Below are positions 9,903 through 23,913 of a DNA stretch of 64,000 nucleotides, piece after piece. Both the position numbers and the translations under genes were made by a program. Within the stretch, counting starts at the first letter, position 1. Each line of letters begins with the position of its first letter. The notes under the pieces are model-generated. The model made no database searches and was not told where the DNA came from. It saw nothing but the letters and a program-made list of their open reading frames with translations. Location: contig NZ_BDEL01000001.1 in NCBI RefSeq assembly GCF_001685485.1, positions 3,817,501 through 3,881,500 of the forward strand. The letters are read 5' to 3'. The stretch comes from Formosa haliotis. Its GTDB lineage: Bacteria > Bacteroidota > Bacteroidia > Flavobacteriales > Flavobacteriaceae.

Positions 9903-9987
9903 GGAGAAATGGCAGAGTGGTCGAATGCGGCAGTCTTGAAAACTGTTGAGGGTCACACCTCCGGGGGTTCGAATCCCTCTTTCTCCG
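9903..9987 (+). tRNA. tRNA-Ser (anticodon UGA)
   Basis: An 85-nt cloverleaf with a long variable arm. The acceptor stem GGAGAAA pairs with TTTCTCC, the discriminator is G, the anticodon loop CTTGAAA exposes TGA, and the T-loop GGTTCGAATCC is canonical. CCA is not encoded. The 3' end borders the integrase gene, so it is the likely attachment site of the ICE. Confidence 0.97.
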
Positions 9988-10012
9988 CTGAAAGATTATT
10001 AAATCTTACTTA

Positions 10013-12688: not shown

Positions 12689-12814
12689 CTCAGCCCATTC
12701 CCACTACATGCTGCGAAAAGCTTCATTTCGGGAAAAGCGCTTCATTAAAAAGTCTTGAACACAACGTTAATCGTTCCGGATTTCATTTCACTTGCTTGCT
12801 AATTCCCGAGAAAA
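12689..12814. repeat. Direct repeat copy A (~126 bp, non-coding)
   Basis: From CTCAGCCCATTCCCACTACA to about CCCGAGAAAAA this segment matches 24014-24140 with only scattered substitutions; the central 33-bp block starting AAAAAGTCTTGAACACAACG is identical. The two copies bracket cargo block 1. No ORF, inverted ends or transposase is associated. Confidence 0.9.
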
Positions 12815-13355
12815 ATTGGAAAGCAAAAGAACATAAAGTGAGGTTGTTAACTAGTATTGTTTGTTAGAAAACGGAGTTTTTCAACCTTACAGCACAGGCT
12901 GCTTGTGGTTGAAGCTATTTGATTTTAATAAACAGAAAATTAATGAACACTATTACCACTTTAAAACAATTTTCGGGGACTATGCTATTCCGGGTATTCA
13001 GGAAGAAAAAAATCATTTCAATAAATTATGAAGTAGTCCTATTACGAAAATGTAATCTCAACATGTTTACAAATTACAATTCCATAGAGGCAGTGTTAAA
13101 CTCTTGCTCTTTTATGGGGGTTTGCAATGGAAAGTTTCGCATACGTTTTCTTTTAATTTTTTTCATGATTTTCATGAATTGTTTGGGATATTGGATCCCT
13201 TTTCTATTATTTCTCGCCATAATATAGTTTAATGAAATTCCTCAAATCAGTATTATTTTCTGGATTGGGATAGGATGTAGGGTGGATAAATTTCAAATTT
13301 CTTTAAAAATTGCTAAAGGGTTAGTAACAGGTATATGTTAATCTTATAGAGCATA
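12815..13355. other. Gene-poor stretch after repeat A
   Basis: No convincing gene. A short open frame (12943-13227, about 94 codons, ending in a hydrophobic FLLIFFMIFMNCLGYWIPFLLFLAII tail broken here only for description) could encode a small membrane protein, but its composition looks like translated AT-rich non-coding DNA and I see no family. Confidence 0.4.
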
Positions 13356-13781
13356 TTAATACTCTTCCTTATTAAATTCAAGACTGACACCTGTGTCCTC
13401 TAAAATTCGGACTTCCAATAAAATATCTTCCCTAAAAGCCTCATCAGTATGATCTGAAGTTTCTGGATAGTAGTAAAAGGTCTTAAATAATAATAAAACC
13501 TCCTCGTGGAGTAGTGCATTTTTAAGCCCATAATATGATTTGATCTCAAAACTTAAAAAATCATAAAAATCTTCATCTTCTTGTTCTATGAAATCTAAGT
13601 ATTTTTCAGGAAACCCATTAATATTGTAATTTTTAGAAAGACAATAGTCAAAAATCAAAGATGTAATTTCATAATCATAGTTTTCCATTTCCTTTATATC
13701 GTCCAATGTTTCCGTATCTGGTATATTTAAAGTTTGTTCTTTATACCATTTAATTTCTTGTAAAGTGTCGGCTATTTCCAT
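13356..13781 (-). CDS. Hypothetical acidic protein
   Basis: A 141-residue, strongly acidic, predicted helical cytoplasmic protein (EIADTLQEIKWYKEQ at the start; many Glu/Asp and aromatic residues). I recognise no family. It is the last gene of a minus-strand operon starting at 14949, 10 bp behind the cREC_REC gene, and so would be controlled by the CCGTCA-N5-TGTCGG site at 14998. An accessory or regulatory partner of its neighbours is a guess. Confidence 0.65.
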   Translation of the reverse strand: MEIADTLQEIKWYKEQTLNIPDTETLDDIKEMENYDYEITSLIFDYCLSKNYNINGFPEKYLDFIEQEDEDFYDFLSFEIKSYYGLKNALLHEEVLLLFKTFYYYPETSDHTDEAFREDILLEVRILEDTGVSLEFNKEEY

Positions 13782-13791
13782 TTTTTTGTAT

Positions 13792-14145
13792 TCACTTGTT
13801 ATGATTGTTGTTATTTTTATTTAAAAAATTAATATAATTATTAAGAAGTCCTCGAATTTGTTCAGCAGCAACGGGATTAGCAGAATGCACATGAAACTCT
13901 AGACTGCTTAAATCTAAGCCCGATTTGTAAACCAGCCATTTTGCAGCAGCCAAACCATCCGGTGCAAGTTCTCCGTTTTCATTTAAACCTAAATCATTAT
14001 CAAAACTGATGAATTCTGGAAGGCCATTTTTAATGATAAATGTTACAAATTCATGATAACTTCTTACAACATCAAATTCTGAAACCATAAATTTAGAATA
14101 TACCATATCCACCGTTCTTAAATCATCTAGAAACAATTTTTTCAT
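13792..14145 (-). CDS. cREC_REC protein (cyclic-phosphate processing receiver domain)
   Basis: A 117-residue single-domain protein of receiver-like Rossmannoid fold. The LFLDDLR start with an acidic pair, the VRSYHEFVTFI helix, FISFDNDLG and the C-terminal EFHVHSANPVAAEQI block are diagnostic of the cREC_REC family, predicted to process cyclic phosphates or cyclic nucleotide ends. The ATG at 14145 is preferred over a TTG four codons upstream. Its start lies 3 bp from the end of the esterase gene, so the two are probably translated together. An RtcB ligase, which acts on RNA 2',3'-cyclic phosphates, is in the same cargo block. Confidence 0.75.
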   Translation of the reverse strand: MKKLFLDDLRTVDMVYSKFMVSEFDVVRSYHEFVTFIIKNGLPEFISFDNDLGLNENGELAPDGLAAAKWLVYKSGLDLSSLEFHVHSANPVAAEQIRGLLNNYINFLNKNNNNHNK

Positions 14146-14147
14146 AA

Positions 14148-14642
14148 TTAATAACAAAGTTTACTGAAAAATTCTGAGACAGCTTCTTCGAATATCTCTA
14201 CGGGAATTCGATGTGCCAAATCATTATACAAATGAATGGAGTACTCAGGGTGAAATGCTATAGTGTTCCCAAGAAATTGTAACGTATCCTTTGGGTCTAT
14301 AACGTTATCTGCTGTGCCTAAAATAATGTGTTTTAGCACGCTTTTATTATAAGGTAATTCAGGGACATTTTGCAATACAGATCGTTTTGCTAAAGCAGGA
14401 TTAAAAAGCAAAGCTGGACGTTGCAATGCATTAGAAACATAATACCCGGCAAATCCTCCCATACTACTGCCAATAACAACATTGATATCTATTTCTTTAT
14501 AACTTGCTATAATTTGTGCTATGCTATCTGGTGTGTTTTCAAAGTCTATCGCAGGCGCATATACGGTACCAAAGGTTTCTAAAATTCCTTTTTTTTGGGT
14601 GCTTAAACTACCATTTAAGCCGTGAATGTATAGTATGTTCAT
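14148..14642 (-). CDS. YqiA-like alpha/beta hydrolase (UPF0227 esterase)
   Basis: A 164-residue compact alpha/beta hydrolase. IHGLNGS near the N-terminus forms the oxyanion region, Ser 60 in GSSMGGF is the nucleophile, the D in GTADNVIDP and the H in LAHRIP complete the triad. Length and motif spacing match the YqiA/UPF0227 esterase family; members have esterase activity towards small acyl esters and their physiological substrate is unclear. Cytoplasmic. It sits in a four-gene minus-strand operon upstream of cREC_REC. Confidence 0.83.
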   Translation of the reverse strand: MNILYIHGLNGSLSTQKKGILETFGTVYAPAIDFENTPDSIAQIIASYKEIDINVVIGSSMGGFAGYYVSNALQRPALLFNPALAKRSVLQNVPELPYNKSVLKHIILGTADNVIDPKDTLQFLGNTIAFHPEYSIHLYNDLAHRIPVEIFEEAVSEFFSKLCY

Positions 14643-14721
14643 AATTTTTTCAATTGTTATAAATAGTGATATAAATATGTTTTACTAGAAAGCTTTCTTG
14701 AAGCTAGGCAGTGTTATCCAT

Positions 14722-14949
14722 TTATTTTCTTAATGCTCTGAATGTCATCTCGGAATTGTATTTTTTTCCGTCCTTTTCGAAGAACCATACATTCGAAATC
14801 TCCCGAACTTTTGGTAAATCGAGGTCGTCAGTTGTAATTTTTTGTTTGATAATTCTCCGAAATTTTTTGTTTGCGAATCGCTTACATTCCTTTTCTGGTG
14901 TTGCAGATGTAATACCGTGAATTTTTGTTTTCTTTATGGATCTACTCAT
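14722..14949 (-). CDS. Small basic hypothetical protein
   Basis: A 75-residue Lys/Arg-rich protein beginning MSRSIKKTKIHGITSA and containing CKRFANKKFRRIIKQK. I have seen this type of short conserved protein as 'hypothetical' in Bacteroidota but know no function; the charge suggests nucleic acid or ribosome binding. The ATG at 14949 is preferred over one 11 codons upstream because a TACATTTG -7 element ends 31 bp before it. First gene of the operon controlled by the palindrome at 14998-15014. Confidence 0.65.
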   Translation of the reverse strand: MSRSIKKTKIHGITSATPEKECKRFANKKFRRIIKQKITTDDLDLPKVREISNVWFFEKDGKKYNSEMTFRALRK

Positions 14950-14979
14950 AATTCTATCAAGTAAAGTAATGTTATTCAA

Positions 14980-15014
14980 CAAATGTATATTCTTAGTCCG
15001 TCAAAACATGTCGG
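14980..15014 (-). promoter_or_regulatory. Promoter and WYL-type operator copy 2
   Basis: On the minus strand a palindrome (plus strand CCGTCA-AAACA-TGTCGG, 14998-15014) is followed after 10 bp by TACATTTG (14980-14987), a good -7 element. The palindrome differs by one base per arm from the operator at 17958-17974 between the WYL regulator and the AAA-M41 gene, so both promoters are probably controlled together. Confidence 0.7.
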
Positions 15015-15026
15015 TGTAAATTTTAA

Positions 15027-16982
15027 TTACAATGATTTAAAATATTCGTAAATCATAACCATTGCCAAAGTATCTAATTCGCAATATTTTAAAAGGCCTT
15101 TCGATATTTCCAAACGTTCACTTTCCTGCATCGTTTCAAATTGTAATTTGCTATATGCAGTAAGTGCAGCCCCTCCATCTGAAATAGAACTCATTTCTGA
15201 AACTAAATCTTCCAACTGGGTTTCAGACCAATCTTTAAATAAAGCAGGGAGTGTTTTATAAGGACTAATAACCAGACCGTCTTTTATAGTAATAAAAGCA
15301 TGATCTTCATTAAAATTTTTACTAGTTACTTGTATATCTTCTATTGGATTAGCATATTTTTCTTTTAAAAACATACTCGAATTTAATACTGCCGGCAAAA
15401 TAGCCTTGATTGATATCGAACCCTCAGTAATGGGGTGATAATAATAATCCTTTACTACGCGGTACAGGTCTATCATATCACGTGTTCCTTGCCATTTTTT
15501 GGTGCGATTTCCCGGGGAGTGTGTAATACGTTCTATAAATGTCTGAAGTTCGGTTTTATCTGGTTCATTGGAATCCGCTAACTGATCATGAATTTGATTT
15601 AAAACTGTATTTTCATGATTGTGATATCTAAATATACTTCCCTCATTTTTTTCCAAAGCTTGTTTTAATGCTCTTACAAATTTGAAATTGGGAAATTCCC
15701 CAACAGTAGCATTTAAGTATTCTGTAGCATGATCTATGCGACCATCTTCATAAACAATATGATGGGAAAACTGGAAAGCGGTTTGTTCGTATGGGTGTCT
15801 TCCAGCCGTAAAGGGTAAAGCCACCATAGAAGTTTCAAAATCAATAAAATTTAAAGGGTAAACCCAGGTGGACATTTCTAGTTTTAAGCCGTCTAATTCT
15901 ATAAATGGGGTGTTGTCATTTTGTTGCTCCTTTTCCACTTGAATCCAACGTCTTTCTGAATTCGAAATTTTAAGCGCTTCGGGTTGCGGATTTACATCCG
16001 ATTCATTTAAATCTGAGATAAAATATTTTCCAGATTCGATTAATTTCTTTGACCCTCTAAAGTTCCAAACATCATACACCTTGGGCATATTTGCTGCTTG
16101 GTTAGTAATTTGTAATTGGGCAGTCCAACAGTCATGGAATCCACTTTTTTCACTTTCAGTAGGGGTTTCTGTATAAAACTCACAACTTTTGCACTGACTT
16201 CCGATGGGCTCTATTAGTTTTTTGTCCTGAGCATAATGATCTCGAAACATAATAAGTAATGCTTCAAAACCTAGTGTTTCATTAAGTGGATTATTTTTAT
16301 AGATATACTCAAGCTCTTCTTCTATATTAATATCCGATAATAAATTCTCACCAAGATCGTCTAACAGCAAGCCTTCCTTTTTAATTATTCCTGTTCTTAA
16401 ATCGGATGATTTTGAAATCTTAAAACACTGATTTATACCATCGACCGTGGCAACTGCATCTTTATTTACTAGTTTTAAATAAGATTTAATTTTCCAATCT
16501 GGGTGGCATTTTTGTATTACATATTTTTGAAATGCAACATCATAAAGGTAGGCAGACCATCCACCAGTAAGCCCTCCGCGCTTTCCTATGAAAGATTCAT
16601 GGTTATTTGCGTTTACCGATTTAGCCTTAACTTCAAAAAGGTTTATATGATTTCCTTTTTTTTCTAAAATATCCACTCGTATAAATAAACCGTTGTACAG
16701 AAAGGCTGCTTCAAAAATCACAACTTGATCTTGTTGTAGCAGCTTTTCTGTTTTCTGTGCCAACAGACCGTAATTCCAATCATCACCTAGAATTGCAATT
16801 CCATCAGGGTATTGCATTCGTGCTAGTTCTTCTACCTGAAACCCACCTTCTGCCAAGGCTTCTAAAAACGGATTTGAGAGTTGTTGGTTTACATATTCTG
16901 ATTTACGTGTGTAAAATAGTTTTGTTGGGCATTCCAATCCTAATTTAAATCTGGATTTAGTAAGGTAGCGTTCCGTGTTCAT
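15027..16982 (-). CDS. DUF2779 protein: Cas4-like nuclease fused to DEDD-type exonuclease
   Basis: A 651-residue nuclease fusion. The N-terminal half looks like a Cas4/RecB-type PD-(D/E)XK domain: D104 and E117-x-K119 (IRVDILE...LFEVK), with Cys 18, 264, 267 and 285 placed as the four Fe-S ligands of Cas4. The second half (DUF2779) has the RNase H-fold exonuclease signature: FIDFET (~378-383), then YHNHENTVL, DMIDLY and YCELDTLAMV with spaced acidic residues. It would act on DNA or RNA ends in the cytoplasm. Its start is 6 bp from the end of the WYL regulator gene, so the two are co-transcribed. The domain reading is by motif; substrate is unknown. Confidence 0.82.
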   Translation of the reverse strand: MNTERYLTKSRFKLGLECPTKLFYTRKSEYVNQQLSNPFLEALAEGGFQVEELARMQYPDGIAILGDDWNYGLLAQKTEKLLQQDQVVIFEAAFLYNGLFIRVDILEKKGNHINLFEVKAKSVNANNHESFIGKRGGLTGGWSAYLYDVAFQKYVIQKCHPDWKIKSYLKLVNKDAVATVDGINQCFKISKSSDLRTGIIKKEGLLLDDLGENLLSDINIEEELEYIYKNNPLNETLGFEALLIMFRDHYAQDKKLIEPIGSQCKSCEFYTETPTESEKSGFHDCWTAQLQITNQAANMPKVYDVWNFRGSKKLIESGKYFISDLNESDVNPQPEALKISNSERRWIQVEKEQQNDNTPFIELDGLKLEMSTWVYPLNFIDFETSMVALPFTAGRHPYEQTAFQFSHHIVYEDGRIDHATEYLNATVGEFPNFKFVRALKQALEKNEGSIFRYHNHENTVLNQIHDQLADSNEPDKTELQTFIERITHSPGNRTKKWQGTRDMIDLYRVVKDYYYHPITEGSISIKAILPAVLNSSMFLKEKYANPIEDIQVTSKNFNEDHAFITIKDGLVISPYKTLPALFKDWSETQLEDLVSEMSSISDGGAALTAYSKLQFETMQESERLEISKGLLKYCELDTLAMVMIYEYFKSL

Positions 16983-16988
16983 TATAGT

Positions 16989-17900
16989 TTAGTCTTGATA
17001 TTTATTATAAATTTTTTCAATTTCCTTTTTTATATGATTCCGGTAACTGGGAGGTGAAATTACTTCAACTTCCATGCTCATTTTTAATATTTGGATGTCG
17101 AATTCGTAATTAGGAATTATATGATAACTTACTTTATAATATCCGGGCTCATCATCTTCTTTTATGTGCTGAGATGGGTGTAGAGGTAAACTTTCTAAAT
17201 AGTGCATGTGTTTTTTATGAGTTTTTAAAACAATGTTTTCCAATGAAGCATCATTTACACGTACCCCAACAATGCAACTGAATTTGTTTAAATCTTCTTC
17301 AAAATCCTTTCTATTTACAGATTGCAGGTCACCTTGTTTTAGATCGCTCAGTCTGTCTATACCGAAAATGCGTATGGTGTTCAAATCATCAACAACACCT
17401 ATAACATACCACCGGTTTAAATATTCCTTAATCATTAAAGGTGAAATGGTATACTGCTTCTTCGTGTCCTTATAATAATTATAATGCTCGAACGATAATT
17501 TACAGCCTTGTTTTATAGCGATTAAAATTGGAGCGAGGTTTTCTATACCATTTAAAACAGGTGTGTTTTCAAAAAGTATGTATTCCTTGAGTTTGTTGTC
17601 GCTCATTAAACCTTCGGAAAAAATTTCACTTATACTTACCAATTCCAAATATTTGAAAAAAGAGACTAAGTCCACACTTTCTTCTTCATTTATGTAATAG
17701 CCCCTGTTCTTTCTACAATGAGAGATCTCGATTCCAAAATCGTTTCTTAGACTCTTTAGTTCTCGTTCTATTGTGCGTTCCGAAACCGAAATATCTTGAT
17801 CTTTTAGGTATTCTAAAACCTCGGCTTTCGTAGGATAATGTTTGTTTCTTATAAAAGTTAAAAGATGAAGCGTTCGTTTTGATAATGATGGATTTGACAT
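16989..17900 (-). CDS. WYL-domain transcriptional regulator
   Basis: A 303-residue regulator: N-terminal winged helix (KRTLHLLTFIRNKHYPTKAEVLEYL...VSERTIERELKSLRNDFGIEI) and a central WYL ligand-sensing domain (LSFEHYNYYKDTKKQYTISPLMIKEYLNRWYVIGV), with a WCX-type C-terminal extension. WYL proteins sense nucleotides or nucleic acid fragments and commonly regulate defence genes. The ATG at 17900 is preferred; the frame is open 22 codons further but that region holds the operator. The palindrome in the 116-bp divergent region suggests autoregulation and control of the AAA-M41 operon. Confidence 0.88.
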   Translation of the reverse strand: MSNPSLSKRTLHLLTFIRNKHYPTKAEVLEYLKDQDISVSERTIERELKSLRNDFGIEISHCRKNRGYYINEEESVDLVSFFKYLELVSISEIFSEGLMSDNKLKEYILFENTPVLNGIENLAPILIAIKQGCKLSFEHYNYYKDTKKQYTISPLMIKEYLNRWYVIGVVDDLNTIRIFGIDRLSDLKQGDLQSVNRKDFEEDLNKFSCIVGVRVNDASLENIVLKTHKKHMHYLESLPLHPSQHIKEDDEPGYYKVSYHIIPNYEFDIQILKMSMEVEVISPPSYRNHIKKEIEKIYNKYQD

Positions 17901-17957
17901 TTGATAGTGTTTTATATACAGTGGTTTTGTTTTACAATTTAAAAATAATATTTTAAA

Positions 17958-17984
17958 CCGACACAAATTGTCGGTCTATTTTTG
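17958..17984. promoter_or_regulatory. WYL-type operator copy 1 and promoter of the AAA-M41 operon
   Basis: CCGACA-CAAAT-TGTCGG (17958-17974) has perfect 6-bp arms in the divergent region. Two bases later comes TATTTTTG (17977-17984), a match to the Bacteroidota -7 element for the rightward gene; the operator would cover the upstream promoter element. A near-identical palindrome lies at 14998-15014. Confidence 0.72.
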
Positions 17985-18016
17985 TTTTTTTGTTTTGTAA
18001 TCAAATTATAACAGGT

Positions 18017-19762
18017 ATGGCAAGCAAATTGGATCAGATAAAAGCACATTTAGAATATAAACATATGCGACTGGAAAAAGTGAATACTGTTTTAAAAACA
18101 GAATTTTTCGGTATAGATAAGGCTATTGATCAAGTTTGTGCAAACATCCGGCCTTGGTATATTTTAGCCGATTTTCAAGAGCGGCCTATGGTTGTTAATA
18201 TATGGGGTTTAACAGGTGTTGGTAAAACTAGTTTGATAAAACGCATAATGGAATTATTGGATATGCGTGATTCTGTATATCATTTCGATATGGGCAATTC
18301 TGATAAAAATAGCCATTCTAATATTTTAAATATTCAAAAGATATTTAAAGTTGAAGATATGCAACAACCATCTATTGCTTTAATTTTAGATGAATTTCAG
18401 TTAGCCAGAACTTTAGATAACAACTTATGTGAAACTGATGATGAGAAAACACGGATAATTTGGGAGCTTTTAGATACAGGCTGTATAGCACCTTCAGAAG
18501 TAGACCATAAAAGCAGTAAAGGCTTAGATTTTTCTAAAAGTATTGTTTTCATAATAGGTAATTTAGATGATGCCTACCACATGGTCAATAATTTTAGTTC
18601 TGATGTATCTGCGGACATTTATTATGCCATGTCTCTAAAAATTACGCTCCCTGAAATTAAATCCGCGTTATTTAAACTATTTCGCAAAGAACAAGTGTCT
18701 AGACTTGGTAATACCCATATCATTTTTCCTGCATTATCTAAACAAGCCTATAAGGAGATTATAGCGACAGAACTTTCTAAATTGAAAGATACATTGGTGT
18801 TGTATTCAGGAATTCAATTCATTATGGATGCTACTCTCGAAGAACTTATTTACAATGAAGGTGTATTTCCATCTCAAGGAGCGCGTCCGGTTTTTACAAC
18901 AGTAAACACCTTAGTGAAATCTCATATTCCAAATATTATTTATGAAGTTTTACAGCAAAAAAAATCAATTACCAGTATTGAATTAAAAGTGAAAAACTCC
19001 AAAATTAATGTCTTTTACCATAGTAGTAAAAGCGTTGTAGTGATTAAACAGATTACATTGTATTTACCCATGGAAAATTTGAGAAAAAACACCTATGATG
19101 ACTTACAAGCCATAGTAGCTGTTCACGAAAGTGGCCATGCCATTTTATCGGCCATCCTTTTAAAACATGTTCCGGAACAAGTACATTCTAAATGTACCGA
19201 AAATTGTTTTGGTTTTGTGTTAGCCTTGCCACCATGTAATTTTCATTATAGGAAGGATATAATTAATTATGTGGCCATGTATTTAGGTGGATTGGCTGCC
19301 GAAGAATTAATATTTGGAAAAGAATATGTGACTTCAGGATCGTCTTCAGATATAAATAAAGCAACGGTGTTTTTAACCAATATGTATAAAATTAGTGGTT
19401 TAGGTGAATATACTCTTAGGTATGATAGTGATTTCTCAAAAAGTCCTTTTTATCACGATTTTGCATTCGTAGAACAAGAGATGAAACAAATGATGGAAAA
19501 AGCCTTAGCCCTTGCAAAAAAAACTCTCCAAAGCGAGATGAAGCTATTGGTGGTTTTATCTGAATATTTATGCCATCATCCCCAAATAGAAAAGGCGCAA
19601 TTAAAAGCATTGATTGCAAAACATAAAGTGACTAAAGACGATCTTATTTCTGATTTTTCTAACCTGTATTACCGCAACAAACTACAGGCTAAAGTCAAAC
19701 AATATGAATTAGGAGGGGAAGTTACCCGGTCGGTAACAACTTTAAAACGCATTACCACATAG
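18017..19762 (+). CDS. AAA ATPase-M41 (FtsH-type) peptidase chimera
   Basis: A 581-residue predicted ATP-dependent protease. The N-terminal half is an AAA+ module of ClpX/ClpA appearance: Walker A GLTGVGKTS (~64-72), Walker B ALILDEFQ (D~125) and a GARPVF sensor-2-like segment. The C-terminal half is an M41 zinc peptidase: HESGH at 370-374 and the third ligand Asp ~445 in SGSSSDINKAT, with FtsH-like spacing. Unlike FtsH it has no transmembrane segments and its AAA part is not FtsH-type, so it should be soluble. The ATG at 18017 (MASKLDQIKAHL) is preferred over a TTG nine codons upstream. It heads a rightward operon with dprA and a SLOG gene. Confidence 0.82.
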   Translation: MASKLDQIKAHLEYKHMRLEKVNTVLKTEFFGIDKAIDQVCANIRPWYILADFQERPMVVNIWGLTGVGKTSLIKRIMELLDMRDSVYHFDMGNSDKNSHSNILNIQKIFKVEDMQQPSIALILDEFQLARTLDNNLCETDDEKTRIIWELLDTGCIAPSEVDHKSSKGLDFSKSIVFIIGNLDDAYHMVNNFSSDVSADIYYAMSLKITLPEIKSALFKLFRKEQVSRLGNTHIIFPALSKQAYKEIIATELSKLKDTLVLYSGIQFIMDATLEELIYNEGVFPSQGARPVFTTVNTLVKSHIPNIIYEVLQQKKSITSIELKVKNSKINVFYHSSKSVVVIKQITLYLPMENLRKNTYDDLQAIVAVHESGHAILSAILLKHVPEQVHSKCTENCFGFVLALPPCNFHYRKDIINYVAMYLGGLAAEELIFGKEYVTSGSSSDINKATVFLTNMYKISGLGEYTLRYDSDFSKSPFYHDFAFVEQEMKQMMEKALALAKKTLQSEMKLLVVLSEYLCHHPQIEKAQLKALIAKHKVTKDDLISDFSNLYYRNKLQAKVKQYELGGEVTRSVTTLKRITT

Positions 19763-19848
19763 CACCCATTGGTATTTAAAAACTAAAATTAATCCTTTTA
19801 TTAACGGCTAAGGCAATTATATTTGTGGTAGCCCAACTCTTAATTAAA

Positions 19849-20088
19849 ATGAAAAACACCTATATTATCGCTTTACTGCAACTTCCTAAAATAGGGCCAG
19901 TTATAGCCAATAAGATTATTAAAACAATTTCTTTTCAAATATTGTCTTCAGAAGATTTAAATCGGGCACTTTTAGAGGCGCAATCTCGTTTAAAGCGAAT
20001 TCCTAAATTTTCTCCAGAAACTATAGATCAAGCTGTCAAAAAGCTGAAGCTATTCTGGTTAAATCAGGCCAACTGGGCATACAGGTAA
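19849..20088 (+). pseudogene. dprA: DprA-like protein, N-terminal part (frameshifted)
   Basis: The N-terminal helical (SAM-like) part of a DprA/Smf protein (MKNTYIIALLQLPKIGPVIANKI). At the five-A run 20038-20042 the frame is lost: with one more A the sequence continues KKAEAILVKSGQLGIQVISIYDKSYPKQF, the usual DprA text, in the next fragment. The ATG is preferred over a GTG eight codons upstream, because the latter overlaps TATATTTG (19818-19825), a possible -7 element. DprA loads RecA on incoming single-stranded DNA; copies on mobile elements may instead serve defence. Confidence 0.82.
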
Positions 20089-20780
20089 TCTCTATTTATG
20101 ATAAATCTTATCCGAAACAGTTTCTAGAAATATTTAATCCGCCTTTGGTTATATATGTGCAAGGCAGCTTAAAAACTTTAAACCAAAATCGTCTTCTGGC
20201 TGTAATTGGAGCTCGAAAACCTTCAAAATTCGGTTTGGAACAAGGCTATAATATTACGAAATATTGTTTGGAATTTGGAGTTGTCATTGTTAGTGGGTTG
20301 GCTCAAGGTACCGATACTATGGCGCATACTTGTGCCTTAGAAAATAATGGAAAAACTATTGCTGTTTTACCAGGTGGACTGGATAAAATTTTTCCAACGC
20401 AAAATTTGAAATTAGCAAATCAGATATTAGAGCAAGATGGTGTATTGTTGTCGGAATACCCACCGGGTACAGCTCCGCAAAAAAACTATTTTATACAAAG
20501 GAATAGACTACAAAGTGCCTTAAGTGCAGGAGTTATAATCATAGAATCGGAAATAGAAGGCGGAACTATGCATACATTTAAATTTGCTAAAACCCACAAG
20601 AAACCTATAGGGGTATTATATCACCCGTTAGAACATCGCTCTGTCAAATCAGCTGGGAATACCGCAATCCTTGAGGCTAAGGATGGGATTAAGCTGGATG
20701 ATTATGATGCAATTAATTACTTTCTTTCTAATACTTTAAAACAGACAATCGACTTAGTAAGCGAAGTCAAATCTGAATAG
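20043..20780 (+). pseudogene. dprA: DprA-like protein, Rossmann domain part (frameshifted)
   Basis: The remainder of the DprA homologue in another frame, with the extended Rossmann fold: AVIGARKPSKFG, VSGLAQGTDTMAH (the SGxAxGxD motif), TIAVLPGGLDKIFP, and QRNRLQSALSAGVIIIES. The first ATG in this frame would lie after the start of the domain. Together with the N-terminal fragment it makes a protein of about 310 residues without the C-terminal winged helix of many chromosomal DprA proteins. It follows the AAA-M41 gene by about 85 bp and precedes another SLOG-superfamily gene. Confidence 0.82.
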
Positions 20781-20803
20781 AAAAAACGTCTGAATGGATT
20801 AGA

Positions 20804-21137
20804 ATGAAACATAAATCTACTGGGTAAATTATTGCAGGCAGTAGAGCATTCGAAAATTACCAAACCTTAAAAATCCAAAGTGAAAATGTGATGGAACACT
20901 TAAACCATGTGCAAATTATTTGTGGAGGTGCCAAAGGAACAGATTCTTTTTCACCATACAGTTTGCCAAGGAACATCATTACGATGTTTTAATTGTGCAA
21001 CCAGATTGGAAACATTTCAAAAGGTAGCTGGTTTTGTTCGTAACGCCGCCATGGTTGAATACAGCGATATGCTTATTGCCTTTTCGGATGGCAAAAGTTA
21101 TGGTGCCAAGTACATCACCCTTGCTACTAAAGGATAA
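20804..21137 (+). pseudogene. DUF2493 (YspA-like SLOG) protein, broken
   Basis: The family text can be read through three lesions. After an in-frame TAA at 20825 comes IIAGSRAFENYQTLK, then IICGGAKGTDSF. One T is missing from the run 20947-20951 before TIQFAKEHHYDVLIVQPDWKHF, and one A is missing at 21019-21022 before VAGFVRNAAMVEYSDMLIAF. GSR, GGAKGTD and RNAAM are the nucleotide-binding motifs of DUF2493, a branch of the SLOG superfamily that also contains DprA. Corrected length is about 112 residues. Two lesions are homopolymer deficits, the stop is a substitution, so at least part of the damage may be real. Confidence 0.75.
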
Positions 21138-21166
21138 TCTATAAGCTCTTTTAGTAGCAAGGGTGA
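21115..21166. repeat. 17-bp perfect inverted repeat
   Basis: TCACCCTTGCTACTAAA (21115-21131) and its reverse complement (21150-21166) are separated by 18 bp. The left arm is the last codons of the DUF2493 gene. There is no T run, so it is not a standard terminator; it may mark an inverted duplication at a rearrangement point. Confidence 0.7.
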
Positions 21167-21264
21167 AGAAATCATACAAAGAAGCACAATACTTATTAGA
21201 CTATCCAGATAAAGCAAATTTTCTTCCTATAGATGAGTTTTTTAAAAAGTGGGAGGGTATGTAA
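21163..21264 (+). pseudogene. Short ORF or gene remnant
   Basis: A 33-codon frame that reads like real protein (KKSYKEAQYLLDYP ... FLPIDEFFKKWEGM) starting at a GTG inside the inverted repeat. It may be the 3' end of a lost gene. No family recognised. Confidence 0.35.
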
Positions 21265-21312
21265 ATGATTTTAGGAAGGCTACAGTTTAATTGAGAATTG
21301 TATAAATATAAA

Positions 21313-21344: not shown

Positions 21345-22874
<1,530 letters not shown>

Positions 22875-22899
22875 TTATTTTTCTTGAAATAAATTAATA

Positions 22900-23913
22900 A
22901 TGGCTCAAAATAAAAATGCATTAATTCGATACAAAACGATAGATAAGTGTCTTCAAAATAACTTTAAGGCATGGACGCTGGACGGTTTAATAGACGCTTG
23001 TTCTCAAGCGCTGTATGAGTATGAAGGACGAACAGTAAATGTCAGTAAACGTACTGTTCAATTGGATATTCAATTAATGAGAAGTGATAAATTGGGATAT
23101 AATGCGCCCATTGAAGTCTATGAAAAGAAGTTTTATCGCTATTCCGATCCAAATTTTTCTATTACAAATATTCCAATTTCAGAAACAGATATGAAAGTGC
23201 TTTCTGAAACCATTGCGATACTGAAACAGTTTCAAGATTTTTCGTTGTTTGGTGAATTGAAAGGGCTGTTCAATAAATTGGAGGATAAAATTTATACTGA
23301 AAAGACGAATAAGTTTTCAATCATTCATCTAGATAAAAATGAAGATTTAAAAGGGTTGGAGTTTCTAGATGAAATTTATCAGGCCGTTCTAAAGGAAGTA
23401 GTATTACTGATAAGTTATAAGCCATTTAAATCGAAGCATCCCAGTATCATAGTATTGCATCCTTATTTTTTGAAAGAATTTAATAACCGGTGGTTTGTTG
23501 TCGGTAAACCGCATGCCGAGGATCGATTACTTACCTTAGCTTTAGATCGTATTGTGGCCATCGATTATAATTTCAATCTTAAATACCAACCCAATGATAT
23601 AAACCCAGATGATTATTATAAGAACACCATTGGTGTCACCGTTTTAGACCATCACAACCTGAAGCATGTCCGTTTAAAAATAGATAGGAAAAATGCACCT
23701 TATGTTTTAACCAAACCTTTCCATAATTCCCAAACGGTCTTAAGAGAAAATCCAGATGGCAGTGTGGTTATAGAATTATTTGTGCATATAAATTTTGAGT
23801 TGGAACGTCTTATTTTAGGATTTGGTGAAGCTGTAGAAGTGTTGTCGCCAAAACAACTCCGGCGCAGCATTTTTAAAAAATTAAACTCAGCTCTTAGTCA
23901 TTATAATAATTAA
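22900..23913 (+). CDS. WYL-domain transcriptional regulator, divergent from rtcB
   Basis: A 337-residue regulator with an N-terminal winged helix (IRYKTIDKCLQNNFKAWTLDGLIDACSQAL...VSKRTVQLDIQLMRSDKLGYNAPIEV) and a WYL domain (~125-240, LLISYKPFKSKHPSIIVLHPYFLKEFNNRWFVVGK), followed by a WCX-like C-terminal domain. It is expected to be an activator or repressor of rtcB, responding to RNA ends or nucleotides. It shares the fold but little sequence with the WYL protein at 16989-17900. The gene is the last of cargo block 1 before repeat copy B. Confidence 0.9.
   Translation: MAQNKNALIRYKTIDKCLQNNFKAWTLDGLIDACSQALYEYEGRTVNVSKRTVQLDIQLMRSDKLGYNAPIEVYEKKFYRYSDPNFSITNIPISETDMKVLSETIAILKQFQDFSLFGELKGLFNKLEDKIYTEKTNKFSIIHLDKNEDLKGLEFLDEIYQAVLKEVVLLISYKPFKSKHPSIIVLHPYFLKEFNNRWFVVGKPHAEDRLLTLALDRIVAIDYNFNLKYQPNDINPDDYYKNTIGVTVLDHHNLKHVRLKIDRKNAPYVLTKPFHNSQTVLRENPDGSVVIELFVHINFELERLILGFGEAVEVLSPKQLRRSIFKKLNSALSHYNN

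Follow-up and report, generated by a model that had tools for sequence, protein, structure and literature searches.

Which signal, if any, ties together a WYL-domain regulator, a nuclease of the DUF2779 family, an AAA-M41 protease and a small esterase-cREC operon that lie side by side in Formosa haliotis? These genes occupy positions 13356 to 21264 of a 64,000-nucleotide stretch of contig NZ_BDEL01000001.1 (3,817,501 to 3,881,500, assembly GCF_001685485.1), hereafter the window. A first-pass annotation, drawn from the letters alone, had proposed that one palindrome, repeated beside TAnnTTTG -7 elements, joins them into a regulon of three transcription units, and the notion of one operator serving three units is well supported by the analysis described here. 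On balance, a DriD-type WYL activator, acting as a homodimer and probably triggered by single-stranded DNA (ssDNA), seems to run a local regulon consisting of WYL-DUF2779, AAA-M41(-DprA) and esterase-cREC.

One operator for three transcription units

Both copies of the palindrome were confirmed in the window. The features on which the argument depends are given below, with offsets such as +11 taken from sites aligned on the operator and with a same-genus relative (referred to as G004) used as comparison for the module.

17958..17974, between WYL and AAA-M41: operator 1, CCGACACAAATTGTCGG, a perfect palindrome
14998..15014, upstream of the esterase operon: operator 2, CCGTCAAAACATGTCGG
16989..17900, minus strand: WYL-domain regulator with winged helix-turn-helix (wHTH), WYL and WCX domains (Pfam WYL and WCX); first ATG at 17900, open reading frame (ORF) open from TTG at 17966
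15027..16982, minus strand: DUF2779 protein (PF11074) with Cas4-like nuclease and DEDD-type exonuclease parts, in the same direction as WYL and 6 nt after it
18017..19762, plus strand: AAA-M41, a fusion of a Clp-like AAA+ part with an M41 zinc protease (PF01434, ClpB_D2-small and AAA matches)
17985..17992, plus strand: TTTTTTTG, putative -7 element of AAA-M41, at the position conserved elsewhere (+11..+18)
17940..17947, minus strand: TATTTTTA, putative -7 element of WYL-DUF2779, likewise at +11..+18
14980..14987, minus strand: -7 element of the esterase operon, TACATTTG, at +11..+18, kept in G004

The exact form CCGwCA-N5-TGTCGG occurs at two sites in the whole 4,305,801-bp genome, both in this module, against about 0.12 positions expected genome-wide from base composition. 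With up to two mismatches allowed, seven strand-wise matches fall in the window versus 1.5 expected, a number reached in none of 100 shuffles. G004 keeps both operators, the sole change being in the spacer of operator 2. A chance palindrome can be rejected given these genome-wide counts, the placement upstream of M41 and the fixed register to the -7 element described below.

Recurrence and promoter register across Bacteroidota

A profile of 25 AAA-M41 proteins was used to collect loci, of which the best 80 of 112, mostly from Bacteroidota by title, were kept. Counts of WYL and operator co-occurrence and of primary and secondary sites refer to 79 loci, with L067 left out since its M41 gene is masked by an overlapping ORF. 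In the M41 loci together with that of G004, the core nCG.CA-N5-TG.CGn was found 81 times against 5.2 expected from a first-order Markov model, and it immediately precedes AAA-M41 in 41 of the 71 loci without RtcB and in none of the ten with it. In 49/79 loci, AAA-M41 has a WYL gene no more than 5 kb away. The presence of WYL is associated with that of the operator over all 79 (33 with both, 16 with WYL alone, 6 with the operator alone and 24 with neither; p = 6e-5) as well as among the 44 with 4 kb on both sides (21/9/1/13 in the same order; p = 2e-4). On an M41 tree of 78 locus rows and the window, operator-bearing proteins make up 40 of the 79 rows and require at least 12 changes on well supported branches; the link between operator and M41 therefore spans deep branches.

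The distance from operator to -7 element is also conserved. Over 80 of the 81 operator sites, TTT[GA] begins at +15 in 54, compared with a mean of 3.2 at offsets 20-60, and the next commonest offsets are +9 (13 sites) and +16 (11 sites). This signature is carried by 31 of 42 primary sites, by 22 of 26 secondary intergenic sites on either strand (a count that excludes eight sites in L067) and by 0/4 sites within genes, while six altered palindromes, taken as a control, gave it in 1 of 64 cases. Among the 42 M41 sites aligned on the operator, T is found at +11 in 30, A or T at +12 in 38, and the three T residues at +15..+17 in 35, 40 and 38, respectively. With the TA numbered -12/-11, the two half-sites occupy -38..-35 and -27..-24. 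The TAnnTTTG element that had been placed beside each palindrome holds for the esterase operon (TACATTTG) and for WYL (TATTTTTA), both at +11; the one assigned to M41, TATTTTTG at +3, is off the conserved position, which lies 8 nt further downstream and reads TTTTTTTG.

DUF2779 is present in 13 of the 80 loci, and the order nuclease-WYL followed by divergent M41 is also seen in Confluentibacter, Bizionia and Xanthomarina, of which two have the same esterase after the nuclease and one cREC (the gene-order view covered 11 of 17 loci). Accidental linkage of WYL, AAA-M41 and DUF2779 is rejected on the WYL and DUF2779 counts and on the gene order in these three other Flavobacteriaceae. The expectation that the entire gene set would be found together elsewhere was borne out for this core and failed for the remainder: at E 1e-4, the esterase was detected in 2/80 loci (L012 and L052, beside DUF2779), cREC in 1/80 (L010, directly after M41), DprA in 1/80, a sole case that is possibly a housekeeping gene, and relatives of the basic, acidic and SLOG ORFs in 0/80. 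A fixed set comprising DprA, cREC, esterase, basic and acidic ORFs is accordingly rejected, and cargo composition varies among loci. The genes that separate WYL from M41 differ among loci, and no shared adaptor gene was found there. A small DEDD exonuclease gene, DnaQ-like by eye, ends 41-77 bp before AAA-M41 in L011, L027, L031 and L051, and a protein resembling uracil-DNA glycosylase by eye is encoded between WYL and AAA-M41 in L041 (9409-9936). In literature surveyed by titles and the starts of abstracts, no report joins WYL to an AAA-M41 protease or describes the operator in Bacteroidota, and none was found that pairs DUF2779 with WYL.

A regulator resembling DriD

The WYL protein of the window has the wHTH-WYL-WCX architecture of DriD-type activators. 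Its profile, compared with solved structures, matched PafBC best (1e-16), followed by DriD (5e-14), BrxR (4e-6) and CapW (2e-4), and DriD is the best fold match of its AlphaFold model (predicted local distance difference test, pLDDT, 87.9). A single-sequence search against solved structures returned two weak matches for the WYL protein and none for DUF2779. The recognition-helix residues R41 and R45 are invariant in 30 WYL rows and stand four residues apart, like R44/R48 of PafB and R38/R42 of SiwR. The protein is the putative binder of the operator.

DriD of Caulobacter crescentus is a WYL activator of an SOS-independent DNA-damage response. The relevant passages of PMC12340889 give its consensus as ATACGAC(X)7GTCGTAT, a tested oligonucleotide that contains CGACA-GTAAC-TGTCG, and sites that extend over the -35 and keep a single spacing to the -10, with G-14 conserved. 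Operator 1 holds all eight core bases of CGAC-N7-GTCG as well as the CGACA-N5-TGTCG of that oligonucleotide, and operator 2 differs from the core at one base. When the didA and driD promoters are aligned on the operator, G falls at +9 and CA at +11/+12, which is apparently the register found at the present sites, in our own alignment and choice of strand; the fixed distance of DriD-type activators is found at 54 of the 80 sites, the DriD side being this alignment of two promoters. The two systems have in common the domain architecture, the operator core, a site across the -35 whose distance to the -10 is fixed, and nuclease genes among the targets. They differ in phylum, in the Bacteroidota -7 element and in what they control, namely AAA-M41, DUF2779, esterase and cREC on a local island here versus didA, bapE, recJ and dnaG for DriD. 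Sensing of DNA damage or foreign DNA, with ssDNA as a presumptive ligand, would fit this likeness.

That the regulator would activate rather than repress is argued from the register and from kinship, and repression is the main rival. According to this rather doubtful alternative, a BrxR/CapW-type repressor would cover about -38 to -24, block the polymerase and leave upon binding a nucleic-acid ligand. As is proposed for the window protein, BrxR and CapW are WYL regulators of defence islands. However, BrxR is described as repressing from inverted repeats downstream of the -10, whereas the window-type site keeps its strict register upstream of the -7, as with DriD. The position is also that of the mycobacterial activators PafBC and SiwR, which act at -26, and the sequence profile is nearer to PafBC and DriD than to BrxR and CapW. 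PafBC, a heterodimer with a non-palindromic motif, and SiwR, which controls DinB-like genes, differ in these respects from the window regulator.

The protease branch beside RtcB

In ten of the loci (L036, L043, L048, L049, L054, L057, L072, L081, L084 and L089) AAA-M41 is linked to RtcB. A gene that we take by eye to be PrfH, on account of a GGQ motif, is present in nine of these, and one that we read as KptA-like in five. This setting hints at a general role of AAA-M41 in nucleic-acid damage, and the branch might supply a protease that works alongside rRNA or tRNA repair. RtcB-PrfH operons hold a branch of AAA-M41 without the WYL operator; the passages of PMC6514570 on such operons list other accessory genes.

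An RNA-damage module, in which a broken RNA end would be the WYL ligand and AAA-M41, cREC and the neighbouring RtcB would form an RNA-repair and ribosome-rescue set, draws on these ten loci, on the naming of cREC for cyclic phosphate, and on the RtcB gene that adjoins the module at 21345-22760. This reading is improbable. The operator is lacking in all ten RtcB-linked M41 loci, the proteases of which fall apart from the window clade in the tree; the RtcB of the window has its own adjoining WYL gene, with no operator site around the pair (21345-23913); and most of the cargo linked to the operator is directed at DNA. That the operator is absent beside RtcB fits the view that WYL control, rather than the protease itself, ties AAA-M41 to the regulon.

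The operator beyond AAA-M41

Among 296 genomes drawn from the phylum (G039 and G052, already represented in the M41 loci, are included), the operator lies within 1.5 kb at eight of the 14 nearest WYL loci, seven of them with the -7 signature, versus 0/15 for more distant WYLs (own locus left out). Seven further WYL loci of relatives were opened, with operators in three. One locus, L135, has two operators, WYL, PDDEXK_4, DUF2779, DUF3375 and an SbcC-like protein and no M41, and another, L137, pairs an operator-bearing WYL locus with an AAA gene and a GmrSD_C protein. Four operators with the -7 signature are packed into 2.8 kb of L138 (3483-6276), a stretch whose neighbours include the WYL gene, an M15 peptidase and a patatin. 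Within the M41 loci, secondary operators precede PDDEXK_4, Mrr, GmrSD, DUF2779, DnaB_C and UVR-motif proteins, one UVR match being just below cut-off. Binding of the palindrome by another regulator, with WYL a mere neighbour, would suit the sites without WYL within 6 kb in L051 (full flanks) and in five loci with cut flanks, and is most improbable given that the operator tracks this WYL subfamily (8/14) and not other WYLs (0/15), also where M41 is missing, and equals the reported target of a WYL protein, DriD.

Two arrangements deserve mention. Within L135 (2733-12000), the PDDEXK_4 and DUF2779 genes precede the Wadjet-like genes (DUF3375, SbcC-like), presumably JetA and JetC, all downstream of WYL and the two operators. 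In L067 (2919-15017, Riflebacteria), eight operator-like sites lie near DUF2779, an IetA-like AAA and an FtsZ-like protein; this DNA is GC-rich and some of the sites are in genes.

Several observations weigh against a DriD-type activator with a shared regulon. The M41 -7 element of the window, TTTTTTTG, is a weak match, and bapE, the third DriD promoter, did not show a clear site where one was expected in our own scoring. CapW has also been solved with ssDNA, and therefore ssDNA alone leaves the sign of regulation unfixed. The strict core is missing upstream of M41 in 9/30 WYL-bearing loci with full flanks, and the operator is missing at 6/14 of the nearest WYL loci and in 4/7 of the further ones. 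Nine of the 20 proteins encoded after secondary operators have no family, and the broken DprA and SLOG genes of the window suggest partial decay. A genome-wide regulon is not supported either: over 14 genomes the relaxed core gave 116 sites versus 176 for a reversed control, exceeding the control in 3/14, and the regulon is therefore local.

Proposed mechanism

Under DriD-type activation, ssDNA that accumulates through damage, stalled forks or invading DNA would be bound by the WYL domain. The winged helices would then grip cCGACA-N5-TGTCGg, with half-sites at about -38..-35 and -27..-24, and the bound dimer would help RNA polymerase to start at promoters with a -7 element fixed 10 nt downstream. 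Three units may thereby be raised: the regulator with its Cas4/DEDD nuclease, the soluble Clp-like AAA+/M41 protease (with DprA now broken), and the esterase-cREC operon. Their products would break down nucleic acid, whether foreign or damaged, and would also remodel or clear the proteins attached to it.

The chances appear about even that the module belongs to a plug-in alarm found throughout Bacteroidota, in which a DriD-type, ssDNA-activated WYL protein acts through a -38/-24 operator in fixed -7 register upon interchangeable island defence cargo. With similarly balanced confidence, this cargo would include the AAA+/M41 protease with Cas4/DEDD nuclease, Wadjet-like and GmrSD systems, and others. 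Operator and fixed -7 spacing together constitute a readable promoter code that predicts which genes answer one alarm, so that several unnamed gene sets may turn out to respond to it. Candidate defence genes are flagged in this way, above all AAA-M41, which is not grouped as a system in PADLOC-DB. If the WYL protein is indeed ssDNA-activated, the DriD target would be common to phyla and serve defence as well as repair.

Cargo genes and genomic setting

The remaining genes of the module are as follows.

19849..20780, plus strand: DprA paralogue (DNA_processg_A), downstream of AAA-M41, frame broken (frames 19825-20088 and 20145-20780)
20826..21264, plus strand: remnant of a second SLOG-like gene in two frames, from three-frame translation
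14722..14982, minus strand: small basic ORF, not intact in G004, where it is interrupted by a gap of about 124 bp
14148..14642, minus strand: YqiA/UPF0227-like alpha/beta hydrolase, the esterase (Pfam UPF0227)
13792..14157, minus strand: cREC_REC protein, cyclic-phosphate processing receiver-like (PF20274, E 5e-22)
13356..13781, minus strand: acidic ORF, no family above cut-off

Pfam backs most of the originally listed parts (WYL with WCX, DUF2779, the M41/Clp-like fusion, DprA, cREC and UPF0227), and a place for DprA and the second SLOG gene, both broken, among the working parts here is not supported. The small basic and acidic ORFs matched no Pfam family above cut-off. DprA is one open frame of 318 residues in G004, and the window copy is regarded as a paralogue because a second DprA (31% identity) is encoded elsewhere in the genome. 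The second SLOG-like remnant looks DUF2493-like by eye. Counterparts of cREC and the acidic ORF form a single 308-residue ORF in G004, and the esterase operon displays two length differences of about 125 bp from this relative, in opposite directions, at 14765-14888 and near 13787-13811. In PADLOC-DB 2.0.0 only single genes found matches (WYL models, ShosA for DprA and a weak DolB for AAA), and no known defence system there was matched by several module genes.

In DUF2779, the four cysteines and both nuclease site sets are kept in 9/9 rows (C17, C263, C266, C284, D103, E116, K118, D380, E382 and D636). This family has been grouped with 3'-5' exonucleases (RNase H-like clade F), with a DUF83/PD-(D/E)XK-like partner domain and a predicted 3'-5' exonuclease activity (PMC3985635); the domain pair is the same here, and a link to a WYL operator or AAA-M41 is not in the passages of that paper. 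AAA-M41 has the FtsH-family M41 zinc protease domain (PF01434, 66.6 bits), with HExGH and Walker A invariant in 25/25 aligned rows. It matches FtsH in the protease part only, the remainder matching Clp/Hsp100 proteins (ClpA/ClpB/ClpC/ClpE), and unlike FtsH with its N-terminal anchor it has no membrane segment, the peak 19-residue hydropathy being 1.68 in 25 sequences. An insertion of about 110 residues in 23/25 rows is missing from the window and Formosa sp. A9 proteins, which are 61% identical.

The module probably sits on a mobile island. A tRNA-Ser gene (9903-9988) is followed, up to 11448, by two ORFs over which tyrosine-integrase domains are divided, as in a broken integrase gene, and the window also encodes an SSB and a DUF5712 protein, which we take to be mobilisation-linked; together these suggest an integrative element. 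A 96-base probe for the tRNA-Ser end found no second att copy. A close AAA-M41 and this WYL (E 1e-15) were absent from the other four same-genus genomes searched, and the module is therefore accessory. The G004 counterpart aligned to 14889-21265 is 97% identical; identity is 94-96% over 12778-14764, on its left side, and 69-90% on its right. Adjoining the module at 21345-23913, RtcB (minus strand) and a second, different WYL regulator (plus strand) stand back to back and are kept at 90% in G004, where about 1.5 kb of extra DNA with a 400-residue ORF lies between the counterparts of 21265 and 21346.

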